Source of the DNA: Vibrio sp. B1FLJ16 | GTDB lineage: Bacteria > Pseudomonadota > Gammaproteobacteria > Enterobacterales > Vibrionaceae | Direction of reading: 5' to 3' | DNA: 64,000 nt | Assembly: GCF_905175385.1 (NCBI RefSeq) | Contig: NZ_HG992750.1 | Span: forward strand, 1,631,418 to 1,695,417 | Part shown: positions 8,050-16,628 of the stretch, piece after piece | How the letters are laid out: every line of letters starts with the position of its first letter | How positions within the stretch are numbered: position 1 is the first letter of the stretch | Notes under the pieces: model-generated | Told to the model about the DNA's origin: nothing | The model's database searches: none | Seen by the model: only the letters and a program-made list of their open reading frames with translations | Program-made: the position numbers and the translations under genes

Positions 8050-8352
8050 GACGTTTTCCTTCTCTTAAACCTTCTATTTAAGGATATGCTAATGTAGGTA
8101 ACGTTACGTAATGTGATGTAAAGGTGTGTAAAGATGACTAAGCAGTTATCGCTTAATGTTCGGAGGGATATAGGGACAAGTCTTGCGTTTTGCCAAATAT
8201 CACTTTTTGTATATCAAAAATACCTGACTATCTGTAACGTATTTTGAAACGTAGCAAGCTTCAGGGCATAACTTTGCTAGAGCTGCATTCATGTCAGTCA
8301 AGGCACTGAATAGCCGCTCAAAGTAGTAATACGGTGGATCCTAATTTTCCAT
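8050..8352. other. intergenic, no gene seen
   Basis: About 300 bp between the divergent EF-hand and NifX-like genes. It should hold both promoters. I see no open frame and no repeat here; the strong palindromes begin at 8353. Confidence 0.5.
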
Positions 8353-8384
8353 AATTAGTTATTGGCATATGCCAATAACTAATT
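8353..8384. promoter_or_regulatory. 32-bp perfect palindrome, likely operator
   Basis: A perfect 32-bp palindrome. The half is AATTAGTTATTGGCAT, and the centre reads TTGGCATATGCCAA. It lies 37 bp before the NifX-like start codon. Its length and symmetry suggest an operator for a dimeric or tetrameric regulator; the divergent DUF134 protein encoded at 9149-9430 is the obvious candidate. That pairing is inferred from position. Confidence 0.7.
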
Positions 8385-8386
8385 GT

Positions 8387-8423
8387 ATAGTGTTCTCCTT
8401 ACACAGATAAAGGAGAACACTAT
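8387..8423 (+). promoter_or_regulatory. hairpin covering ribosome binding site and start codon
   Basis: A perfect 14-bp inverted repeat: ATAGTGTTCTCCTT (8387-8400) pairs with AAGGAGAACACTAT (8410-8423) across a 9-nt loop. The 3' arm contains the Shine-Dalgarno AAGGAG and the first two bases of the ATG at 8422. If the transcript starts upstream of 8387, the folded mRNA should block translation of the NifX-like gene. This could be an RNA thermometer, the target of an RNA-binding factor, or a DNA operator that happens to overlap the site. Confidence 0.7.
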
Positions 8424-8889
8424 GTTGTTTGCCATTCCCTGCCGCGAATCTTCTCTTTCCAATCATTTTGCCAAAGCCCCTCAGATTATGCTGTGGGATA
8501 ACCAAACCAATGCCAAACGAATCCTTGAGCTGCCTAAGTCATCATCGTGTTGTGGTCATAAGCACTTTTGGCGTGAAGTATTGCAAGATAATCAGGTGAA
8601 TGCTGTTGTCGTTCGTTCAATTGGTTCGAATATGCTGAGTACACTATTTAAGCTCAATGTTCGTGTTCTGAGTGCACCGCGTGGGTTCTCTCTGGAGAGC
8701 TTTGATGAAAACCAATTAACTCCAGTCACTCAAATTGAATTTGCTCGGCCGTCAGCGAATAAAAATAAAGCAAGCTGTTCAAGTCAGAGTAAATCACGTT
8801 CTGCTGTGATTGGTATGCGAGAAGCATACAGTGAACGAAGAGTTACAGACCTCGAGTACTCACTAGTAAGCTTTCGCCACAAGCGATGA
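8422..8889 (+). CDS. NifX/NifB-type Fe-Mo cofactor-binding domain protein
   Basis: Encodes 155 residues with the dinitrogenase iron-molybdenum cofactor-binding fold (PF02579 type). It opens with LFAIPCRESSLSNHFAKAPQ, runs through NAVVVRSIGSNMLSTLFKLNVRVLSAP, and carries an SSSCCGHKH metal-ligand-like stretch at about residues 38-46. The C-terminal 50 residues are basic and Ser-rich, outside the domain. The ATG at 8422 is chosen over an in-frame ATG at 8383 because it follows AAGGAG with correct spacing, and 8383 falls inside the palindrome. No nitrogenase genes are present, so the role is probably iron-sulfur or metal cluster handling. It is followed by an NqrM paralogue and a DUF134 regulator. 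Confidence 0.82.
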   Translation: MLFAIPCRESSLSNHFAKAPQIMLWDNQTNAKRILELPKSSSCCGHKHFWREVLQDNQVNAVVVRSIGSNMLSTLFKLNVRVLSAPRGFSLESFDENQLTPVTQIEFARPSANKNKASCSSQSKSRSAVIGMREAYSERRVTDLEYSLVSFRHKR

Positions 8890-8938
8890 ATCACTTGGCG
8901 AAAGCGTTTAAGTTACTCAACCAACCAGAGAAAAAATA

Positions 8939-9148
8939 ATGATATACCTAATCAGCTTTGTGACTTTTTTGGTTGTTGTGGTCTTGATGGCGATAGGCGT
9001 GATGCTAAAACGTCAAACGATACAAGGCAGTTGTGGTGGGCTGGCTAGTATTGAAATAGAAAGAGAGTGCAACTGCGTCGAAACGTGCGATGAGCATGCG
9101 CGTGTACTTTACCAAATACAGGAACCGCAAGTGCCTTTTAGGTTCTAG
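8939..9148 (+). CDS. NqrM-like (DUF539) Na+-NQR maturation paralogue
   Basis: Encodes 69 residues: one N-terminal membrane helix (LISFVTFLVVVVLMAIGVML) and a short cysteine-rich domain with the NqrM signature SCGGL and CNCVETC, giving the four family cysteines. NqrM delivers iron for the Cys-ligated centre between NqrD and NqrE of the sodium-pumping NADH:quinone reductase. The canonical gene normally sits beside nqr-apbE; this copy lies instead behind a NifX-like gene, so it is probably a specialised paralogue. It is in the same direction as the NifX-like gene, 49 bp downstream, and its stop directly abuts the stop of the convergent DUF134 gene. Confidence 0.82.
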   Translation: MIYLISFVTFLVVVVLMAIGVMLKRQTIQGSCGGLASIEIERECNCVETCDEHARVLYQIQEPQVPFRF

Positions 9149-9430
9149 CTATGATTCGCGACTAAACATGAGTGCATGACCATGAACTAAGCTCTGAGCT
9201 ACTTTGGCACGAGCACGCTTTACGATATTGCCAAATGTCTGCCTAGAGACTCCCATGCTAGCCGCTGCTTCTGCTTGACTGAGATCTTCGAGATCGGCCA
9301 GGCGCAGAGCTTCGAGTTCCTCGGCCAACAGCTCAACTTTATCGAGTTGAGAAAGAGGCACGCCATTAGGTTTAAAACACTCGTATGGCGCGCTTCGGCA
9401 AATGTTGCGCTCTTTTTTTGGTCTTGCCAC
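9149..9430 (-). CDS. DUF134 helix-turn-helix regulator
   Basis: Encodes 93 residues of the DUF134 family. The N-terminal segment is typical (ARPKKERNICRSAPYECFKP, with conserved Cys and FKPNG), then a sigma-70 region-4-like helix-turn-helix at about residues 50-80 (LSQAEAAASMGVSRQTFGNI). DUF134 proteins commonly neighbour Fe-Mo cofactor-domain proteins, as here. It is likely to regulate the NifX-like/NqrM-like pair through the palindrome at 8353-8384. It is convergent with the NqrM-like gene (stops adjacent) and divergent from the thioesterase gene with a 49-bp gap. Confidence 0.85.
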   Translation of the reverse strand: MARPKKERNICRSAPYECFKPNGVPLSQLDKVELLAEELEALRLADLEDLSQAEAAASMGVSRQTFGNIVKRARAKVAQSLVHGHALMFSRES

Positions 9431-9479
9431 TTTGTTTACACCTCTAGTCTTATCGTCTTTTCTAACCGAGTAGTATTGT

Positions 9480-9875
9480 ATGTCTATTTATATCCCCAAA
9501 AATCACCAACAATGTGCGGTTTGCTGCCAGCCTTTTTTCAACGATCATAGTGCCATCCACTTTGAGTTAACGGCTGACGGAGGTGTTGTGGGGCAAATTG
9601 TACCAACTAAAAAAGTGCAAGGCTATCAAGGTGTCATGCAGGGCGGTGTGATAGCTACATTGCACGACGCAGCAATGACTCATTGCCTATTCGCTCGTGA
9701 TGTTTGCGCTATGACAGCTCGACTTGATGTTCGCTATATCAAGCCAATCCCTCTCAATTCAGTAATTCAGCTTCAGGCTCATTGCTTGATGGAAAAGAGG
9801 GGTATGTATTTAATGCAGAGTCGCATTTTTATTGGTGGGGACTGTTACTCAGCTGCTGAAGCTAAATTTATCTAA
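9480..9875 (+). CDS. PaaI-family hotdog thioesterase
   Basis: Encodes 131 residues with the hotdog fold. The core motif is GVMQGGVIATLHDAAMTHCL (about residues 57-76; the HGG-type loop reads MQGG), followed by ARLDVRYIKPIPLNSVIQLQ. The N-terminal CAVCCQPFF adds three cysteines unusual for simple thioesterases, possibly a small metal site. It probably hydrolyses an acyl-CoA or acyl-ACP. It is divergent from the DUF134 regulator and is the last gene before the cassette array. Confidence 0.8.
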   Translation: MSIYIPKNHQQCAVCCQPFFNDHSAIHFELTADGGVVGQIVPTKKVQGYQGVMQGGVIATLHDAAMTHCLFARDVCAMTARLDVRYIKPIPLNSVIQLQAHCLMEKRGMYLMQSRIFIGGDCYSAAEAKFI

Positions 9876-10017: not shown

Positions 10018-10140
10018 TGTAGCCCAATTAAGGTGGGAAGCGCGCTACTACAACACTCAATTTGAACGCCTTAATCACTAAGCCTAACTTAAACCCAAAA
10101 TACCACGCGTGCTGAATCCCTCTTGAACTGTTTGTTATAA
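10018..10140 (-). repeat. attC site 1 (distal, degenerate core)
   Basis: Read on the minus strand it starts TTATAACAAACAG and has the usual GCGTGGTA middle, but the final core reads GGGCTACA where the other sites have GGGCGTTA. It is the last site of the array, and loss of this core would block excision at that end. The R'' end overlaps the stop codon of the phosphotransferase gene. Confidence 0.75.
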
Positions 10141-10911
10141 CGTTTTTTCCACCGAAATCAACCAACTAGGTACATTTTCTCTAAACCAATTGAAGTACAT
10201 AGAGGCTGATGATTTACCTCGAAATGTCAAGATATTAGTGACTTCGACAACCAACCAAACTTTCGCAAGAATCAAATGTCTTTGCAGTTTATCTTGGGAC
10301 AACTTGGAAGAGTATTGGACGTATTTTTCTACTATTGACTCATAATCACGGCTTGTTCCTAAACCTCTAACCAAAGGAGCCAAATCAATTGCAGGACTAC
10401 CAAAACCAAACCGCTCCCAGTCAAACAAAACAAGTTCGCCATTACCTCTAGTACCCCAGTTCCCCTCATTGCTATCGCCCGATATTAGTCCTTTAAAGTC
10501 GAATAACTCGAATGATAAATGCTGAACAGTTCTTATAGAATCTTGGGTTACCTCAGGCAAGTTTAATCTACTCAATGCAAGGTCAGTAGAGCGTGAATCC
10601 CAAGCGTGGTTCTTTACTGGAAACTCTGGCTGGAACTTCGAATTATGAATGAATGCTAATTGCTCAAAAGTACTTTTATTAGCGTGTAGACCATCGAACG
10701 TAATACTATGGGGAATGTACTCGATAACTAAGTTATTGCCACTAATATTAAGTAGTTTGGGAGTATTTACACCATCTAATGCCGTAGCTGCAAACTGATA
10801 GAAATTAAGTTCAACATCAGATGCATCTCCTTTATAAATACAAGGCTCGCCCTCAAACTCCCCAATTGAAACATGAGCCGCCCCCATTTTGGATAAGTCC
10901 TGTTTTCCCAT
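10135..10911 (-). CDS. cassette: APH/choline-kinase-like phosphotransferase
   Basis: Encodes 258 residues of the aminoglycoside phosphotransferase/choline kinase fold. The catalytic loop reads GDSNEGNWG (equivalent to HGDLHPGN) and the Mg-binding motif is LFDWERFGFGSPAIDLA. The start at 10911 is chosen because AGGGAAG precedes it within the cassette leader; the frame extends further upstream but that part lies in attC site 2. The true substrate is unknown: it may be a small alcohol or sugar, and the missing catalytic-loop His argues against calling it a resistance gene. The stop codon lies in attC site 1. Confidence 0.75.
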   Translation of the reverse strand: MGKQDLSKMGAAHVSIGEFEGEPCIYKGDASDVELNFYQFAATALDGVNTPKLLNISGNNLVIEYIPHSITFDGLHANKSTFEQLAFIHNSKFQPEFPVKNHAWDSRSTDLALSRLNLPEVTQDSIRTVQHLSFELFDFKGLISGDSNEGNWGTRGNGELVLFDWERFGFGSPAIDLAPLVRGLGTSRDYESIVEKYVQYSSKLSQDKLQRHLILAKVWLVVEVTNILTFRGKSSASMYFNWFRENVPSWLISVEKTL

Positions 10912-10927
10912 ATGCTTCCCTGCGTTA

Positions 10928-11047
10928 TAACGCCCGCTTAAGGGGTGAACAACGCAATACTGATGCCGCCGCACACCACCTTAATCACAAAAATCAACGC
11001 ATAGTAAAAATGCCACGCGTTGTGAATCCCTCTTGAACAATTGTTGT
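10928..11047 (-). repeat. attC site 2
   Basis: Intact site of the AACAACGC/GCGTTG sub-type. On the plus strand it begins TAACGCCCGCTTAAGGGG and ends TTGTTGTG. The core GTTGTG is shared with the leader of the next cassette. Confidence 0.85.
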
Positions 11048-11055
11048 GTTTTGGC

Positions 11056-11589
11056 TCAAATTTTACGACTTAACCCATAAATTGCGTGATCAACAATACG
11101 ACCATTTAGGTTTTCCGAACGAGTGACAATACCCTCAAGCCTAAAACCCAAACGTTCACAAACATTGCGGCTTGGCTTATTTTCGACTGCCGCTGATATT
11201 TGAACTTTTTGCATGTTTAGCTCAGTGAACGCAATTTCAACTAACTTGGAAACTGATTTGCTTACAATACCATGACCTTGATATTCAGAACTTAGCCAGT
11301 AGCCAATTTCCACTTTTTCGAGATCGTAATCAATGCTATTAAAACTAATATTGCCAACTAATTTCTCAGCGTAGAAAATAGCACAAACAAGTGATTTCCC
11401 CTCAGCGTAATCATGCAGAGATCGTTTTATAAAGCTAAGAAAGAAATCTTCGCCATCTGCGTGTGGAGGCCAAGCCAACCAGTGACTTAAATATTTGCGC
11501 TCTCTTGTGACTATTTCGAGATACAAAGGGGCAAATTGGGGCTCTACCAAAGCAAGTTGCAACCCTTTTTCAACTTCCAGTGTAAACAT
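11056..11589 (-). CDS. cassette: RimJ/RimL-type GNAT acetyltransferase
   Basis: Encodes 177 residues of the ribosomal-protein-Ser/Ala N-acetyltransferase-like GNAT branch. Key segments are LVGNISFNSIDYDLEKVEIG, YWLSSEYQGHGIVSKSV (acetyl-CoA pyrophosphate loop, QGHGI) and VENKPSRNVCERLGF near the C terminus. The ATG follows AAGAGGAAATC in the cassette leader. The acceptor is unknown. Its upstream attC (site 3) is interrupted by an insertion sequence, so this cassette has lost its normal upstream boundary. Confidence 0.85.
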   Translation of the reverse strand: MFTLEVEKGLQLALVEPQFAPLYLEIVTRERKYLSHWLAWPPHADGEDFFLSFIKRSLHDYAEGKSLVCAIFYAEKLVGNISFNSIDYDLEKVEIGYWLSSEYQGHGIVSKSVSKLVEIAFTELNMQKVQISAAVENKPSRNVCERLGFRLEGIVTRSENLNGRIVDHAIYGLSRKI

Positions 11590-11607
11590 GATTTCCTCTT
11601 AAAAACA

Positions 11608-11623
11608 CAACGCCCTATTAAGG
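11608..11623 (-). repeat. attC site 3, fragment A (split by IS)
   Basis: The plus-strand sequence CAACGCCCTATTAAGG is the outer end of an attC. The rest of the site resumes at 12964, on the far side of the insertion sequence. Confidence 0.8.
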
Positions 11624-11706
11624 TGATGAGATGTTCTCCCCCTACCACTTCACATGACTGTAAGCCATGCTTGGAGTGTTCAGATCCGAAGCAGAAGGAG
11701 AAGACC

Positions 11707-12723
11707 ATGACTCAGCATAAAATCATCGGCATCGACTTAGCAAAAAATATTTTCTTTCTTTTTGAAATCAATCATAAAGGAAGAAACCTCAGTCGTAAAA
11801 AACTTCCACGAAGTAAACTACTTGACTACATCGCAGCGCAAACTCTCTGCATCATCGCGATGGAAGCTTGTTCTGGTGCGCATTACTGGGCTCGTGAGTT
11901 CGAAAAGTTTGGCCACAAACTCCTCCTGTATCCGCCCCAGCATGTCAAAAATCAACGTCGTAAACAAAAGAATGACTATAACGATGCTGAAGCGATTGCT
12001 GAGCTCGCTCTATACCAACGAAACTATACCGTTCCACACAAATCCATCGAACAACAAGACATTCAATCATTGATTCGAATGCGTAGATTATGCGTAACCG
12101 AGAGAACCCGATTGATTAATCAAGTTCGAGGCCTCCTTGCTGAATACGGCATTGTTATATCTAAAGGAAAAGCCTCCTTTAGACAAACCATTCCTGAAAT
12201 AATGGAAAATTCTGAAAACCTACTCTCGCCAACTTTGCGTGAGCTGCTAGCCCATCAATACGAGCGTTATTTATACATCGATGAACAGATTCAATGGTTT
12301 GACGAGAAACTCAACCAAACGGTGAAACAATTCGATAATGCCAAACGACTCATGTCGATCCCTGGTTTCGGGCCTCTGACTAGCCAAGCTGTCGCTGTAT
12401 GGCTCGGCTCAGGCCAACAATTTAAGACTGGGCGAGATGCATCCGCTGCAATGGGGCTGGTTCCAAAACAAGATACCACGGGCGGCAATGTCACGCTTCT
12501 AGGGATAACTAAGCAGGGCAATACTTACATTCGCTCTTTACTCGTTCACGGCGCAAGGGCGGCTTTAAGGCGAGCCAAATTCAAATCCGATAAACTCAGT
12601 AAGTGGATGTTGGACATCCAAGAGCGGCGAGGAGCCAATCGTGCCGCTGTCGCCCTCGCCAATAAATTCATGCGGATTGCCTGGGCAGTCACAACCAAGA
12701 AAGAAGAGTACCAACCAGCATAA
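11707..12723 (+). CDS. IS110/IS1111-family transposase
   Basis: Encodes 338 residues. The N-terminal RuvC-like DEDD domain has GIDLAKN (Asp), AMEACSGAHYWA (Glu) and KNDYNDAEAIAE (two Asp). The C-terminal Transposase_20 domain begins near LMSIPGFGPLTSQAVAVWLG and continues through GLVPKQDTTGGN. The ATG at 11707 is preceded by AAGGAGAAG; an in-frame extension upstream crosses the IS end and is not credible. No frameshift is present, so the enzyme looks intact. It is on the strand opposite the cassettes. Confidence 0.93.
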   Translation: MTQHKIIGIDLAKNIFFLFEINHKGRNLSRKKLPRSKLLDYIAAQTLCIIAMEACSGAHYWAREFEKFGHKLLLYPPQHVKNQRRKQKNDYNDAEAIAELALYQRNYTVPHKSIEQQDIQSLIRMRRLCVTERTRLINQVRGLLAEYGIVISKGKASFRQTIPEIMENSENLLSPTLRELLAHQYERYLYIDEQIQWFDEKLNQTVKQFDNAKRLMSIPGFGPLTSQAVAVWLGSGQQFKTGRDASAAMGLVPKQDTTGGNVTLLGITKQGNTYIRSLLVHGARAALRRAKFKSDKLSKWMLDIQERRGANRAAVALANKFMRIAWAVTTKKEEYQPA

Positions 12724-12963
12724 GACAACAACCATCACCACCCCTTTGCAAAGTACGTAGTGAGATGAATATCAGGATAAATCCTACACGTTGAAAACCT
12801 TGTGCTCACACTGACTTTTAAAGTCGATAAGGTGATTAGGACTTCGTGTTCGACTGCCTCATCTTGGCCAAGGCAATAGCCGCTAAAACAGGCCGTATAT
12901 ATGGTAGTTAACCTGCGCTTTTAATCACACTGCTCACTTGCAAAACTGGGGGAGACCATATAT
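12724..12963 (+). ncRNA. putative seekRNA/bridge-RNA region of the IS
   Basis: A 240-bp tail between the transposase stop and the right subterminal repeat with no coding capacity. In IS1111-group elements the guide RNA is made from this position. The 9-mer TAAGGTGAT at 12828-12836 also occurs across the left junction with the attC (11619-11627), as expected for a target-recognising guide. GTGCTCAC at 12803-12810 resembles the complement of the right-side target GTGAAGCAC with one base missing, which is weaker. The RNA itself is inferred. Confidence 0.6.
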
Positions 12964-13066
12964 GTGAAGCACGCAACCACGACACTCAATTTAACCACCG
13001 TAATCACCAAACTTAACCCAAACTAAAAATGCCAAGCGTGCTGAATCACTCTTAAATTGATTGTTA
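12964..13066 (-). repeat. attC site 3, fragment B (split by IS)
   Basis: Remainder of the interrupted attC, from GTGAAGCACGCAACC to the core TTGTTAG at 13061-13067. It belongs to the AAGCACGC/GCGTGCTG sub-type. Joined to 11608-11623 it would give a normal-length site. Confidence 0.85.
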
Positions 13067-13069
13067 GCC

Positions 13070-13603
13070 CTATGCCCAAAGGTTGCGCGCCTCTACCGCT
13101 TCGATTTTGACACCGAAACTAGAAATACTAGATAACGTGGCATTGTGATGCTCTCGAATTTGAGCCCCACTGGCGTGCTCCTTATCATGAGTTGTGTGAG
13201 CATCCGAAACCAAAGTTACGGGATAGCCTAAACCTGCAGCTCTGCGAATGGTAGTATCAACGCAAAACTCTGATGCGTAACCACACACAATTAAGCTATC
13301 TACATCAAGTTCATTCAAAACACTTTGAAGATTAGTATTCAAGAACGAGTCTGGTGTTGTTTTGCGGACGAAATGGTCACCAGTTTGTGTAATTAAGCTG
13401 GACTGCAATGCCCAACCAGCACTTTCGTATTCAATAACAGATTTAGTTTGCTCGTGCTGGACAAAGATAACTGGGACAGACTTAGCACGCGCCAATTTCG
13501 TAACCTCATTAATTTTGGTGAGTACGATTTGTGATTCAAATGGTTGAGGTTCCGGGTCGAACAGAATCGACTGAACATCAATAACTAATACTGCAGATTT
13601 CAT
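13070..13603 (-). CDS. cassette: isochorismatase-family hydrolase
   Basis: Encodes 177 residues of the isochorismatase/nicotinamidase fold. It opens with AVLVIDVQ (catalytic Asp), has FVRKTTPDSF (Lys) and GYASEFCVDTTIRRAAGLGY (catalytic Cys in SEFCV), so the Asp-Lys-Cys triad is complete. The substrate is unknown: this fold covers amides such as nicotinamide, N-carbamoyl compounds and isochorismate. AGAGGAAAATA precedes the ATG. It is a single-gene cassette between attC sites 3 and 4. Confidence 0.87.
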   Translation of the reverse strand: MKSAVLVIDVQSILFDPEPQPFESQIVLTKINEVTKLARAKSVPVIFVQHEQTKSVIEYESAGWALQSSLITQTGDHFVRKTTPDSFLNTNLQSVLNELDVDSLIVCGYASEFCVDTTIRRAAGLGYPVTLVSDAHTTHDKEHASGAQIREHHNATLSSISSFGVKIEAVEARNLWA

Positions 13604-13622
13604 TATTTTCCTCTGATAGGGC

Positions 13623-13746
13623 TAACGCCGCATTAAGTGGTGAACAACGCGACCACCCAACCTAAACCTTGCCACATTTAGCACTGAAGCTGACCTTGAC
13701 TGAAATCGCCAAGCGTTGAGAATCCGTCTTAAATGCTTTGTTATGT
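13623..13746 (-). repeat. attC site 4
   Basis: Intact site of the AACAACGC/GCGTTG sub-type. Plus-strand start TAACGCCGCATTAAGTGG, end TTTGTTATG. Its core overlaps the stop codon of the HEPN-like cassette gene. Confidence 0.85.
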
Positions 13747-14292
13747 AGCGGACTCACGTCCGTACAATACGTCATTTCTATGCTCCCAGAAGTCCCATAG
13801 ATCACTCTTGGTTTTGACGATCAAAGATGTGATTTTCTCCATCGAATCTTCCGTGAATTGCGCATACTCTTGGTTCATGCCTTTCTTCGACATTTTGAGC
13901 TTTATATAAGTATAGCCCTCGACATCTGTAGCTTCCCAATTAGCATGCACGACCATATTTCTGAGACGACCACTCTCATTTAGATTTGTAATGATTTGCT
14001 CGTAGCCGTCTAATTTACGATCAAGACCCACCTGAAAATCATCACAAAATCGCTTCAATAAATCTACTTTTGACGAATAATTAAGCTTATTCAACACTAT
14101 TAAACCTGGTGCATCAGAACGATCTGTAAAGTGTTCGCACAAAACTGAATCGAGTTCTGATTCTAATGAATTGAAATACATAACGATTAAACCAATGTAA
14201 GGTAATATCCGATCTAGATGTTCTTCGGATTTATCTTCGTCATCAATACAATGAGAAAGGTGTTGTTGAAACTCTACTAGCTTATTTTTCAA
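13741..14292 (-). CDS. cassette: unknown protein with HEPN-like RxxxxH motif
   Basis: Encodes 183 residues from a TTG start behind AAGGAT. The protein is helical. Around residues 113-125 it has SGRLRNMVVHANW, which contains R-x4-H, the spacing of the catalytic motif of HEPN ribonucleases, and a preceding ESELDSVLCEHF helix. I do not recognise a named family. HEPN proteins occur in toxin-antitoxin and anti-phage systems, often with a partner, but no partner gene is in the same cassette. The HEPN reading is a suggestion from one motif. Confidence 0.55.
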   Translation of the reverse strand: MKNKLVEFQQHLSHCIDDEDKSEEHLDRILPYIGLIVMYFNSLESELDSVLCEHFTDRSDAPGLIVLNKLNYSSKVDLLKRFCDDFQVGLDRKLDGYEQIITNLNESGRLRNMVVHANWEATDVEGYTYIKLKMSKKGMNQEYAQFTEDSMEKITSLIVKTKSDLWDFWEHRNDVLYGRESAT

Positions 14293-14322
14293 TCGCTTAA
14301 TCCTTATTTCCGCTTAGCTACA

Positions 14323-14448
14323 TAACGCCGCGTTAAGTAGTGAGCAACGCCACCACAGAACCTAGACTATTGTGCCATAAACACTTAAGCTAAACTTTGA
14401 ACTGAAAACGCCATGCGTTGGGAATCTGCCTTAAACGCTTTGTTATAT
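14323..14448 (-). repeat. attC site 5
   Basis: Intact site of the GCAACGC/GCGTTG sub-type. Plus-strand start TAACGCCGCGTTAAGTAG, end TTTGTTATA, just before the stop codon of the downstream GNAT gene. Confidence 0.85.
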
Positions 14449-14910
14449 TTATTTTTCTCGAACCATTTGTGGGTATCCACTTTGGGCTACTTCATACACA
14501 CGAAATCCAAACTTTTCATACAATTTTATCGCTGAGGTATTCTGAGGATGCACACCAAGCCTTAAACCCGAGACTGAGTTTTCAACCAAGTGTTGCATCA
14601 AAGAAGAAGCTACGCCTAAACCTCGATGTTCCGGATGCACAGCGATCGCAACTTCAGGGTAGTCAGCATATTTGTGAGTTTGGCTAGATTTGTGGCGTAA
14701 TTGGATTAAACCCACCGGCTTGTCTTCAGATGAAAAAGCAAAGAAACCAAGGTCGCCATCCTTGCCCCAGTTCGCATAATACTCTTTGATATGAGGAATA
14801 TCCAAAATATCAGGCTTGTGGTCTGGCTCATTATCAGGAGTCCAAAGCGCTATCAATAGAAACTCTTTCTGTAATTCTACATCCGATTCTTTAACTAATT
14901 GAAATCGCAT
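14449..14910 (-). CDS. cassette: GNAT-family N-acetyltransferase
   Basis: Encodes 153 residues of a GNAT enzyme: beta-4/5 region PVGLIQLRHKS, acetyl-CoA loop VHPEHRGLGVASSLMQHLV (R/Q-x-x-G-x-G/A form), and NTSAIKLYEKFGFRVYEVA near the C terminus. The acceptor is unknown. It is the second acetyltransferase cassette in the array, of a different subfamily from the RimL-like one at 11056. It lies between attC sites 5 and 6. Confidence 0.85.
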   Translation of the reverse strand: MRFQLVKESDVELQKEFLLIALWTPDNEPDHKPDILDIPHIKEYYANWGKDGDLGFFAFSSEDKPVGLIQLRHKSSQTHKYADYPEVAIAVHPEHRGLGVASSLMQHLVENSVSGLRLGVHPQNTSAIKLYEKFGFRVYEVAQSGYPQMVREK

Positions 14911-14926
14911 AACTTACCTATAAATA

Positions 14927-15046
14927 TAACGCCCAGTTAAGGGGTGAAGCACGCAATACCGATGTTACTGCATGGCACTTCAACACCGAAATCAAACGCA
15001 TATCAAAATGCCACGCGTGCTGAATCCCACTTGAACTGTTTGTTAG
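14927..15046 (-). repeat. attC site 6
   Basis: Intact site of the AAGCACGC/GCGTGCTG sub-type, plus-strand start TAACGCCCAGTTAAGGGG and end TTTGTTAGC. Very close in sequence to attC site 7. Confidence 0.88.
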
Positions 15047-15473
15047 CACGCTGCTCTTTAAGCCTTTGGCACACGCCAAGATATTGAAATATAGCACGAA
15101 ACTAATGAATTAAGACACTGAAACCAAACGGGCAGCTGCCAAACTCGAAACTAACTTTAAGCGAAAGTTGGCAAGAAGAAAAACATGCTTAACTGCCCTT
15201 TTTCACCGCTTTCAAATTAGCAAAGAATACGGGCTTCGAACTCGAACAACAGCGACAAAGAAACGCTTGTTTTGCCGAAAATTTCTCAGCGCCAAAGAAA
15301 CCACGCCAGAGAAATAGCCCGAAAGTTAGAAACCGTAAACGGTGAAATCCAAGCGAAAACTATACATCTAGTGCCACCGGAGCGAACGTGAAAGGCACAT
15401 TTGATCAGGTGCAAAGCGAGGAAAAGAAACCAATAAAAACAGAAACTTTTAGCCTTTGATACCAACCTAGTGC
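14927..15473 (-). repeat. ORF-less cassette, copy A
   Basis: A 547-bp cassette (attC site 6 plus a 427-bp body) with no credible reading frame. It is paired with copy B at 15474-16021. The body from 15255 to its 5' end matches copy B over 219 bp with only two substitutions and no gaps. The part nearer the attC (15047-15250) is clearly more diverged. It may carry a promoter or a small RNA; no product can be named. Confidence 0.8.
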
Positions 15474-15593
15474 TAACGCCCAGTTAAGGGGTGAAGCACG
15501 CAATAACCAAGCCGCCGTATTGCACTTCAACACCGAAACCACCGCATACCAAAAATGCCACGCGTGCTGAATCCCACTTGAACTGTTTGTTAG
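15474..15593 (-). repeat. attC site 7
   Basis: Intact site of the AAGCACGC/GCGTGCTG sub-type. A long minus-strand frame runs across it (15405-15707), but that is attC-derived coding of the DUF3265 kind and is not annotated as a gene. Confidence 0.88.
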
Positions 15594-16021
15594 CACACTG
15601 CCCTTTTGGCTTTTGGTACACGCCAAGATATTGAAATATAGCACGAAATTTATGGAGTAAAACACCAAAGCCAAATGGACAACGACTAAACTAGAACTCA
15701 GCCACAAAACGCAAGTTGGCTAGAAGAAAAACATGGTTAACAGCCCTTTTTCACCGCTTTCAAATTAGCAAAGAATACGGGCTTCAAGCTTGAACAACAG
15801 AAACAAAGAAACGCTTGTTTTGCCGAAAATTTCTCAGCGCCAAAGAAACCACGCCAGAGAAATAGCCCGAAAGTTAGAAACCGTAAACGGTGAAATCCAA
15901 GCGAAAACTATACATCTAGTGCCACCGGAGCGAACGTGAAAGGCACATTTGATCAGGTGCAAAGAGAGGAAAAGAAACCAATAAAAACAGAAACTTTTAA
16001 CCTTTGATACCAACCTAGTGC
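15474..16021 (-). repeat. ORF-less cassette, copy B
   Basis: A 548-bp cassette (attC site 7 plus body), tandem duplicate of copy A at a constant offset of 548 bp through the conserved block (15803-16021 here). Identity falls sharply outside that block, giving a mosaic pattern. No open frame with a ribosome binding site is present on the cassette strand. Confidence 0.8.
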
Positions 16022-16144
16022 TAACGCTTTGCTAAGGGGTGAAGCACGCAATAAAGATGTTTCTGCATGGCGCCATAAACACCTAAACTCACCGCAAAGC
16101 GAAAATGCCACACGTGCTGAATCCCTCTTAAGCAACTTGTTATG
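16022..16144 (-). repeat. attC site 8
   Basis: Intact site of the AAGCACGC/CGTGCTG sub-type; the inner arm reads CACACGTGC. Plus-strand start TAACGCTTTGCTAAGGGG, end CTTGTTATG, overlapping the stop codon of the next cassette gene. Confidence 0.85.
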
Positions 16145-16466
16145 CTCGTCTTTCCAGCAACTCTGTAATGCCCTTTTTGAGTTCATCCGACAGACGTTCG
16201 AACTGCTTTGCTGCAACCAAGTTTTCTTCACACATTAGCATAAGCTGAATAAACGCCTTATTACGAGAATGACCATCAAAGATAAGCCTCATTTGCTTTT
16301 CAGATGTTTTGGAATACTGACACATGAAATGAAACCTTTCCCCTGCCAATTCTGACTCGTTAGTAATAGTTTCTATAACGTCATTCAGCTGCCTAGTGCA
16401 ATATAGCTCAATAGCTTCATTTTTAATCTCGCAAAAGACCTTCCAATCAGACTCTTTGATACTCAT
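16140..16466 (-). CDS. cassette: small helical protein, unknown
   Basis: Encodes 108 residues that I do not recognise. The start at 16466 is chosen because GGAGG lies 5 bases before it; in-frame ATGs further upstream lack a ribosome binding site and one lies at the attC edge. The protein is predicted mostly helical (DWKVFCEIKNEAIELYCTRQ; NLVAAKQFERLSDELKKGI), has several Cys and Met, and no signal peptide. It lies between attC sites 8 and 9. Confidence 0.6.
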   Translation of the reverse strand: MSIKESDWKVFCEIKNEAIELYCTRQLNDVIETITNESELAGERFHFMCQYSKTSEKQMRLIFDGHSRNKAFIQLMLMCEENLVAAKQFERLSDELKKGITELLERRA

Positions 16467-16504
16467 GCTAGCCTCCATAAAGTTCCATTTTTCAGCATAG
16501 AGCA

Positions 16505-16628
16505 TAACGCCCAATTAAGGGGTGAACAACGCCTCCACCCAACCTAAAGCATTGTGCCATAAACACTAAATTTGAAGTAGAAACAAAAATGCCAAGCGTT
16601 GTGAATCCCTCTTAAATTGCTTGTTATA
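16505..16628 (-). repeat. attC site 9
   Basis: Intact site of the AACAACGC/GCGTTG sub-type. Plus-strand start TAACGCCCAATTAAGGGG, end CTTGTTATAA, overlapping the stop codon of the ABM-like cassette gene. Confidence 0.87.

Follow-up and report, generated by a model that had tools for sequence, protein, structure and literature searches.

Gene content of the locus

The window, by which we mean the whole stretch of 64,000 nucleotides analyzed here, lies at 1631418-1695417 on contig C2 of a two-contig Vibrio genome of 4.78 Mb. It carries a NifX-like gene (8422..8889, + strand, 155 aa) which was assigned by Pfam to PF02579 (Nitro_FeMo-Co) at 47.9 bits against a curated cut-off of 26.3, with putative cofactor binding. 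This gene is followed by an NqrM-like gene (8939..9148, + strand, 69 aa, PF04400 by Pfam) and by a convergent gene on the - strand (9149..9430) encoding a DUF134 protein (PF02001, 77.5 bits, curated cut-off 27) with a sigma-region-4-like helix-turn-helix, which is the regulator we propose. Searches of the same genome returned one NifX match at E 0.001, one DUF134 match and two NqrM matches, the second NqrM-like gene being located on the other contig, C1.

The closest named relatives of the NifX-like protein (17 loci) were found in V. tubiashii T33, V. atypicus, Grimontia hollisae, V. pacinii and V. mytili. The G. hollisae protein (L124) was 85% identical to that of the window, above several Vibrio species, and the operator palindrome at this locus was 36 bp long with outer arms of its own, a combination which suggests that horizontal transfer may have occurred. 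Two genomes contained two NifX-like copies each (L125 and L126 in V. pacinii, L003 and L223 in G063), and in both pairs each copy had a separate operator and the hairpin regions differed. Between the small genes at 10034-16627 of the window we noted repeats of approx. 50-140 nt (TAACGCC..TTAAG.. / ..TTGTTAT), which we take to resemble the attC sites of a chromosomal integron cassette array, and inside this cassette-like array an ORF at 11536-12723 was labeled by eye as transposase-like.

Inverted repeats upstream of the NifX-like gene

An inverted-repeat search identified a hairpin with 14-nt arms at 8387..8400 and 8410..8423 (+ strand), which are 100% complementary and enclose a 9-nt loop. 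The 5' arm, which lies mostly upstream of the predicted transcription start, holds the anti-SD motif CTCCTT, and the 3' arm runs from the SD motif AAGGAG (8410-8415) through the AT of the ATG start codon (8422-8424). Directly before the hairpin is a 32-bp perfect palindrome (8353..8384) made up of two 16-nt arms (8353-8368 and 8369-8384) with no loop, and we propose that its 20-bp core, TTATTGGCATATGCCAATAA (8359-8378), serves as the DUF134 operator. Both repeats and the placing of the SD and start codon in the 3' arm had been described in an earlier prediction made from the letters of the window (the original prediction), and the search bore this description out.

When folded as RNA the hairpin gave -18.7 kcal/mol (z -7.05) and the palindrome -16.9 kcal/mol (z -6.06), and none of 200 shuffles equaled either value. 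The 64-kb window contained seven perfect inverted repeats with arms of at least 11 nt and a loop of 12 nt or less, and among its perfect inverted repeats with loops of this size the hairpin and the palindrome, which are adjacent, ranked first and second. The two repeats are not due to chance. An intrinsic terminator was also considered and none was found in 8050-9480.

Conservation of the palindrome core

To place the palindrome among relatives we used 115 loci from 196 Vibrio genomes, searched upstream of NifX or DUF134-NifX genes. In 113 of these loci, 25 of which held two cores, the exact motif GCATATGC was present at a distance of no more than 400 bp before the first gene, and the remaining two loci carried the motif with one base changed. 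The original prediction had considered such an arrangement not to be expected for a NifX-like gene, which proved incorrect for the palindrome core. NifX and DUF134 (over the cut-off) co-occurred, being found in an identical set of 113 of the 196 genomes. Among order-level DUF134 loci (approx. 3 kb each, from six other families and one Vibrio) the core was present in 27 of 29 and absent from L102 and L119; at L121 it was found only far from DUF134, where it lay upstream of a NifX gene (L158). Across the phylum DUF134 scored over the cut-off in 14 of 398 genomes, nine of them above 50 bits and eight of these nine within the order, and GCATATGC was not found in L230 (class) or L231. Support for the operator is confined to the order, and the reading of the palindrome core as a conserved DNA operator is well supported by these comparisons. 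At L161, L005, L004 and L203 the operator palindrome was 36-44 bp long, and its outer arms were specific to the lineage. The outer arms paired better than swapped arms in loci with the gene order of the window (z 3.6), and the excess was not significant in DUF134-first loci (z 0.5) or in those with DUF134 on another contig (z 0.75).

A regulon of many sites was rejected, as the Vibrio genome itself contained a single operator site at up to three mismatches of the 20-mer and a reversed control pattern gave three. The DUF134 protein matches sigma-70 region-4 models or folds, an SRQT..N stretch was invariant across 21 DUF134 sequences, and no solved structure matched DUF134 by sequence at E 0.1. 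The co-occurrence and the constant SRQT..N stretch point to binding of DUF134 to this operator, and we give such binding, taken jointly with the translational lock proposed below, about an even chance. No description of an operator or function for DUF134 / COG1342 (PF02001) was found in the literature searched, which was mostly without subscription papers, and among the matches listed for GGCATATGCC the titles look unrelated to an operator. Two candidate sources on DUF134 (PMC10434189, PMC8459023) had matched on other DUF numbers and were set aside.

Predicted promoter

The left half of the operator core is a -35 hexamer, TTGGCA (8362..8367, + strand), which is followed at 18 bp by a -10 hexamer, TATAGT (8386..8391, + strand), overlapping the 5' arm of the hairpin. 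This pair was the sole sigma-70-like match in 8050-9480, and since shuffles averaged 2.9 such matches it is by itself no evidence for a promoter. The comparison across loci was restricted to those with enough sequence (53/55, 32, 13/16, 5/11 and 1). Of the 53 loci sharing the gene order of the window, where DUF134 is downstream on the opposite strand, 52 had a TAnnnT motif 16-19 bp from the -35, as did 26 of 32 DUF134-first loci, against 1/53 and 1/32 with a shifted spacer; the corresponding figures were 2/13 with DUF134 on another contig and 0/5 with DUF134 further upstream. This cross-locus comparison makes the predicted promoter convincing. An AT-rich block, GGATCCTAATTTTCCA (8336..8351, + strand), is partly conserved upstream of the operator and may be an UP element.

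By a rule of thumb from the position of the -10, transcription is predicted to start at 8398..8401 (+ strand), close to a start downstream of 8400, which the original prediction had named as counting against its reading. Because the -10 overlaps the 5' arm, the gene's own mRNA is predicted to lack most of that arm, and in the window at most three of the 14 bases fall within it. The predicted start usually falls inside the 5' arm in the 22 dereplicated leaders that share this gene order, and nine of these leaders have over half of the arm beyond the rule-predicted start minus 2 nt.

SD:anti-SD pairing in related leaders

When the leaders were read, perfect stems were found only in the nearest relatives L001, L002 and L004, with one mismatch in L003, and in other leaders (e.g., L016, L223, L024 and L142) the SD and start codon were hidden by unrelated sequences. 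In relatives sharing the gene order of the window the SD is likewise hidden by pairing, as originally claimed for the window, each lineage using sequences of its own. Among 83 NifX-first leaders, 15 had z below -2 (mean z -0.70). We then compared the pairing of each leader's own arms with that of arms swapped between species in 79 of the 83, four rows being left out as their match did not begin with a start codon. Own arms outpaired swapped arms at all dereplication levels (0 or 1 of 5000 permutations), dereplication being by ungapped identity and not by tree. The split by gene order was chosen post hoc, after the pooled result, and the pooled test was significant too. For the gene order of the window (22 dereplicated of 54 leaders) own arms gave -10.36 kcal/mol and swapped arms -7.09 kcal/mol (z -5.7, 0 of 5000 permutations). 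No excess was observed with DUF134 on another contig or far away (n=14, z -0.4), with DUF134 upstream of NifX (n=4, z 0.5), in DUF134-first leaders (n=17, z 1.2) or in control genes of the window (n=24, z 1.3).

Shuffling of the 5' arm only gave a combined p of 1.5e-6 for the gene order of the window and 1.5e-5 without the clade of the window, with just seven of the 22 dereplicated leaders at z below -2; the other classes and 30 control genes were not significant, two of 14 other-contig leaders having z below -2. The top signal in a scan of pairing from -260 to +78 was at the SD (z -5.6), with lesser peaks over the operator (z -3.2) and around -120 (z -3.3). Covariation across leaders, a check proposed with the original prediction, was measured in 11 close leaders: six pairs were changed on both sides when both helices were counted, compared with 2.7 in shuffles (7 of 500 reached six), and the hairpin helix alone contributed only two of its 14 pairs, with 77.9% of cells paired and one pair broken in seven of the 11 leaders. 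Overall the hairpin exceeds local chance.

Proposed mechanism and alternatives

In a longer RNA the SD and start codon lie in a stable predicted helix, and the predicted cost of opening the region from SD to ATG is 17-18 kcal/mol, compared with 5.7 kcal/mol if the RNA starts at 8398-8401. Relief from loss of the 5' arm averaged 4.1 kcal/mol in the gene order of the window and 0.8-2.4 kcal/mol in other classes and controls. This relief was larger than in 64 pooled others (p 7.7e-4) and than in DUF134-first leaders or controls (p 0.0016 each); the difference from the other-contig class was weak (p 0.041), and that from the class of NifX with DUF134 upstream was not significant (n=4, p 0.33).

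We propose that DUF134 would bind the palindrome core as the operator of the neighboring protein and, since this operator overlaps the -35 of nifX-nqrM, would most likely repress by competing with sigma. Transcripts started further upstream would carry both arms, burying the SD and start codon, and RNA from the gene's own promoter would begin near the end of the 5' arm, without most of it, and be freely translated. Stray transcription would then be unable to bypass the operator and the gene would answer only to its own promoter. We consider the combination of a DUF134-repressed promoter with a translational lock on upstream-started RNA to be evenly balanced between right and wrong. A more specific version, which we put forward only tentatively, would make DUF134 a stand-alone relative of sigma region 4 that sits on back-to-back -35-like half-sites (TTGGCA/TGCCAA) and blocks the -35 by imitating sigma. 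The same 80 bp would contain a lock on the chromosome resembling that of T4 gene e, its anti-SD hidden in promoter DNA, and the operon would be deaf to outside transcription.

The nearest upstream gene of the NifX-like gene in the window is divergent, which counts against the read-through lock. Codirectional upstream ORFs were present in 29 of 55 loci with this gene order, and no significant link was seen between the strength of the hairpin and the presence of such a codirectional gene (p 0.069 for all loci, 0.082 after dereplication) in a test of 27 plus against 26 minus loci, in which L029 was set to minus by hand and L141 left out, from an earlier count of 29 plus.

The proposed lock keeps part of the original prediction. 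Hiding of the SD and start codon by the hairpin would hold for RNA with both arms and not for the gene's own mRNA, with its predicted start at 8398-8401, and regulation of that mRNA by the hairpin is probably wrong given the overlap of the conserved -10 with the 5' arm. The best explanation of the palindrome is an operator in the DNA covering the -35, and not a second RNA switch. Two-level control would survive in changed form, with an operator acting on DNA and a lock acting on read-through RNA.

The main rival of the lock is template switching in replication, which would have perfected short imperfect repeats (the proposed seeds being TATAGTG at the -10 with CACTATG at the start, and the operator core), leaving the operator real and the hairpin without a role. 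Template switching can create, maintain and repair perfect stems (PMC8794818). It would account for the hairpin as well as for the long arms of the palindrome, and it fits stems that are perfect in the nearest relatives with sequences that differ between lineages. It also fits the palindromes of at least 34 bp, which occurred in four dereplicated lineages among 53 dereplicated sites with approx. 0.004 expected (at least 30 bp, also four lineages, 0.04 expected), the outer arms differing between lineages. The strongest pairing excess, however, falls on the SD and is not seen in the other leader classes or in control genes, and this class- and site-specific signal argues for selection too, although mutation and selection are not exclusive. 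We regard template switching without a role for the hairpin as possible but unlikely.

The strong hairpin, and pairing that is kept as sequences change, could also be accounted for if the main transcription start lay upstream of 8387 and translation were regulated by the hairpin as a thermosensor, a riboswitch or a switch opened by a protein. This is improbable in view of the -10 at a fixed distance in 52 of 53 loci of the gene order, which in the window overlaps the 5' arm, and of the TTGGCA/TATAGT promoter being the sole sigma-70-like match in its region. A 14-bp perfect stem is moreover very stable for a switch, and an Rfam scan of 8100-8700 returned one match, to a microRNA family (E 0.96), and none over the cut-off. 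That the hairpin serves as another DNA operator, bound by DUF134 or by a different factor, is in our judgment the least likely reading. The hairpin does form a perfect inverted repeat spanning the -10 and start region, and loci with two operator cores do exist (25/113), but its sequence does not resemble GCATATGC and lacks the conservation between relatives that the operator core shows.

Comparison with known systems

As in RNA thermometers and riboswitches the SD lies in a hairpin, but unlike in these the 5' arm is probably mostly absent from the gene's mRNA, and the Rfam scan gave no match over the cut-off. In the leaders of IS10 and IS50, read-through RNA that comes in from outside folds back and masks the start signal, which blocks its translation; the Vibrio lock, unlike these, would not be at a transposase gene. 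A case of the Vibrio type was not found in the literature on insertion-sequence leaders, including the part available of PMC8450116. With regard to DUF134 / COG1342 (PF02001), the neighboring gene is a clear member, and this uncharacterised family gains a testable operator linked to NifX-like and NqrM-like genes.

The closest arrangement, a lock embedded in a promoter, has already been described for phage T4. The SD and/or start codon of T4 gene e (lysozyme), soc, 49 and I-TevI are in an RNA helix, and the late promoter of gene e is in the region encoding the 5' strand, so that short transcripts are without that strand (PMC3014915). The Vibrio site resembles gene e in having the SD and start codon in a predicted helix of a longer RNA. 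As to the promoter, the conserved -10 overlaps the 5' arm in the window, but in nine of 22 relatives most of the arm extends beyond the predicted start minus 2 nt. The Vibrio site differs from the gene e late promoter in that its promoter is chromosomal, of the sigma-70 type and placed under a proposed DUF134 operator, with its start and effect predicted, and would be a candidate for a bacterial chromosomal promoter whose DNA encodes a lock against read-through translation, of which many natural variants are available.
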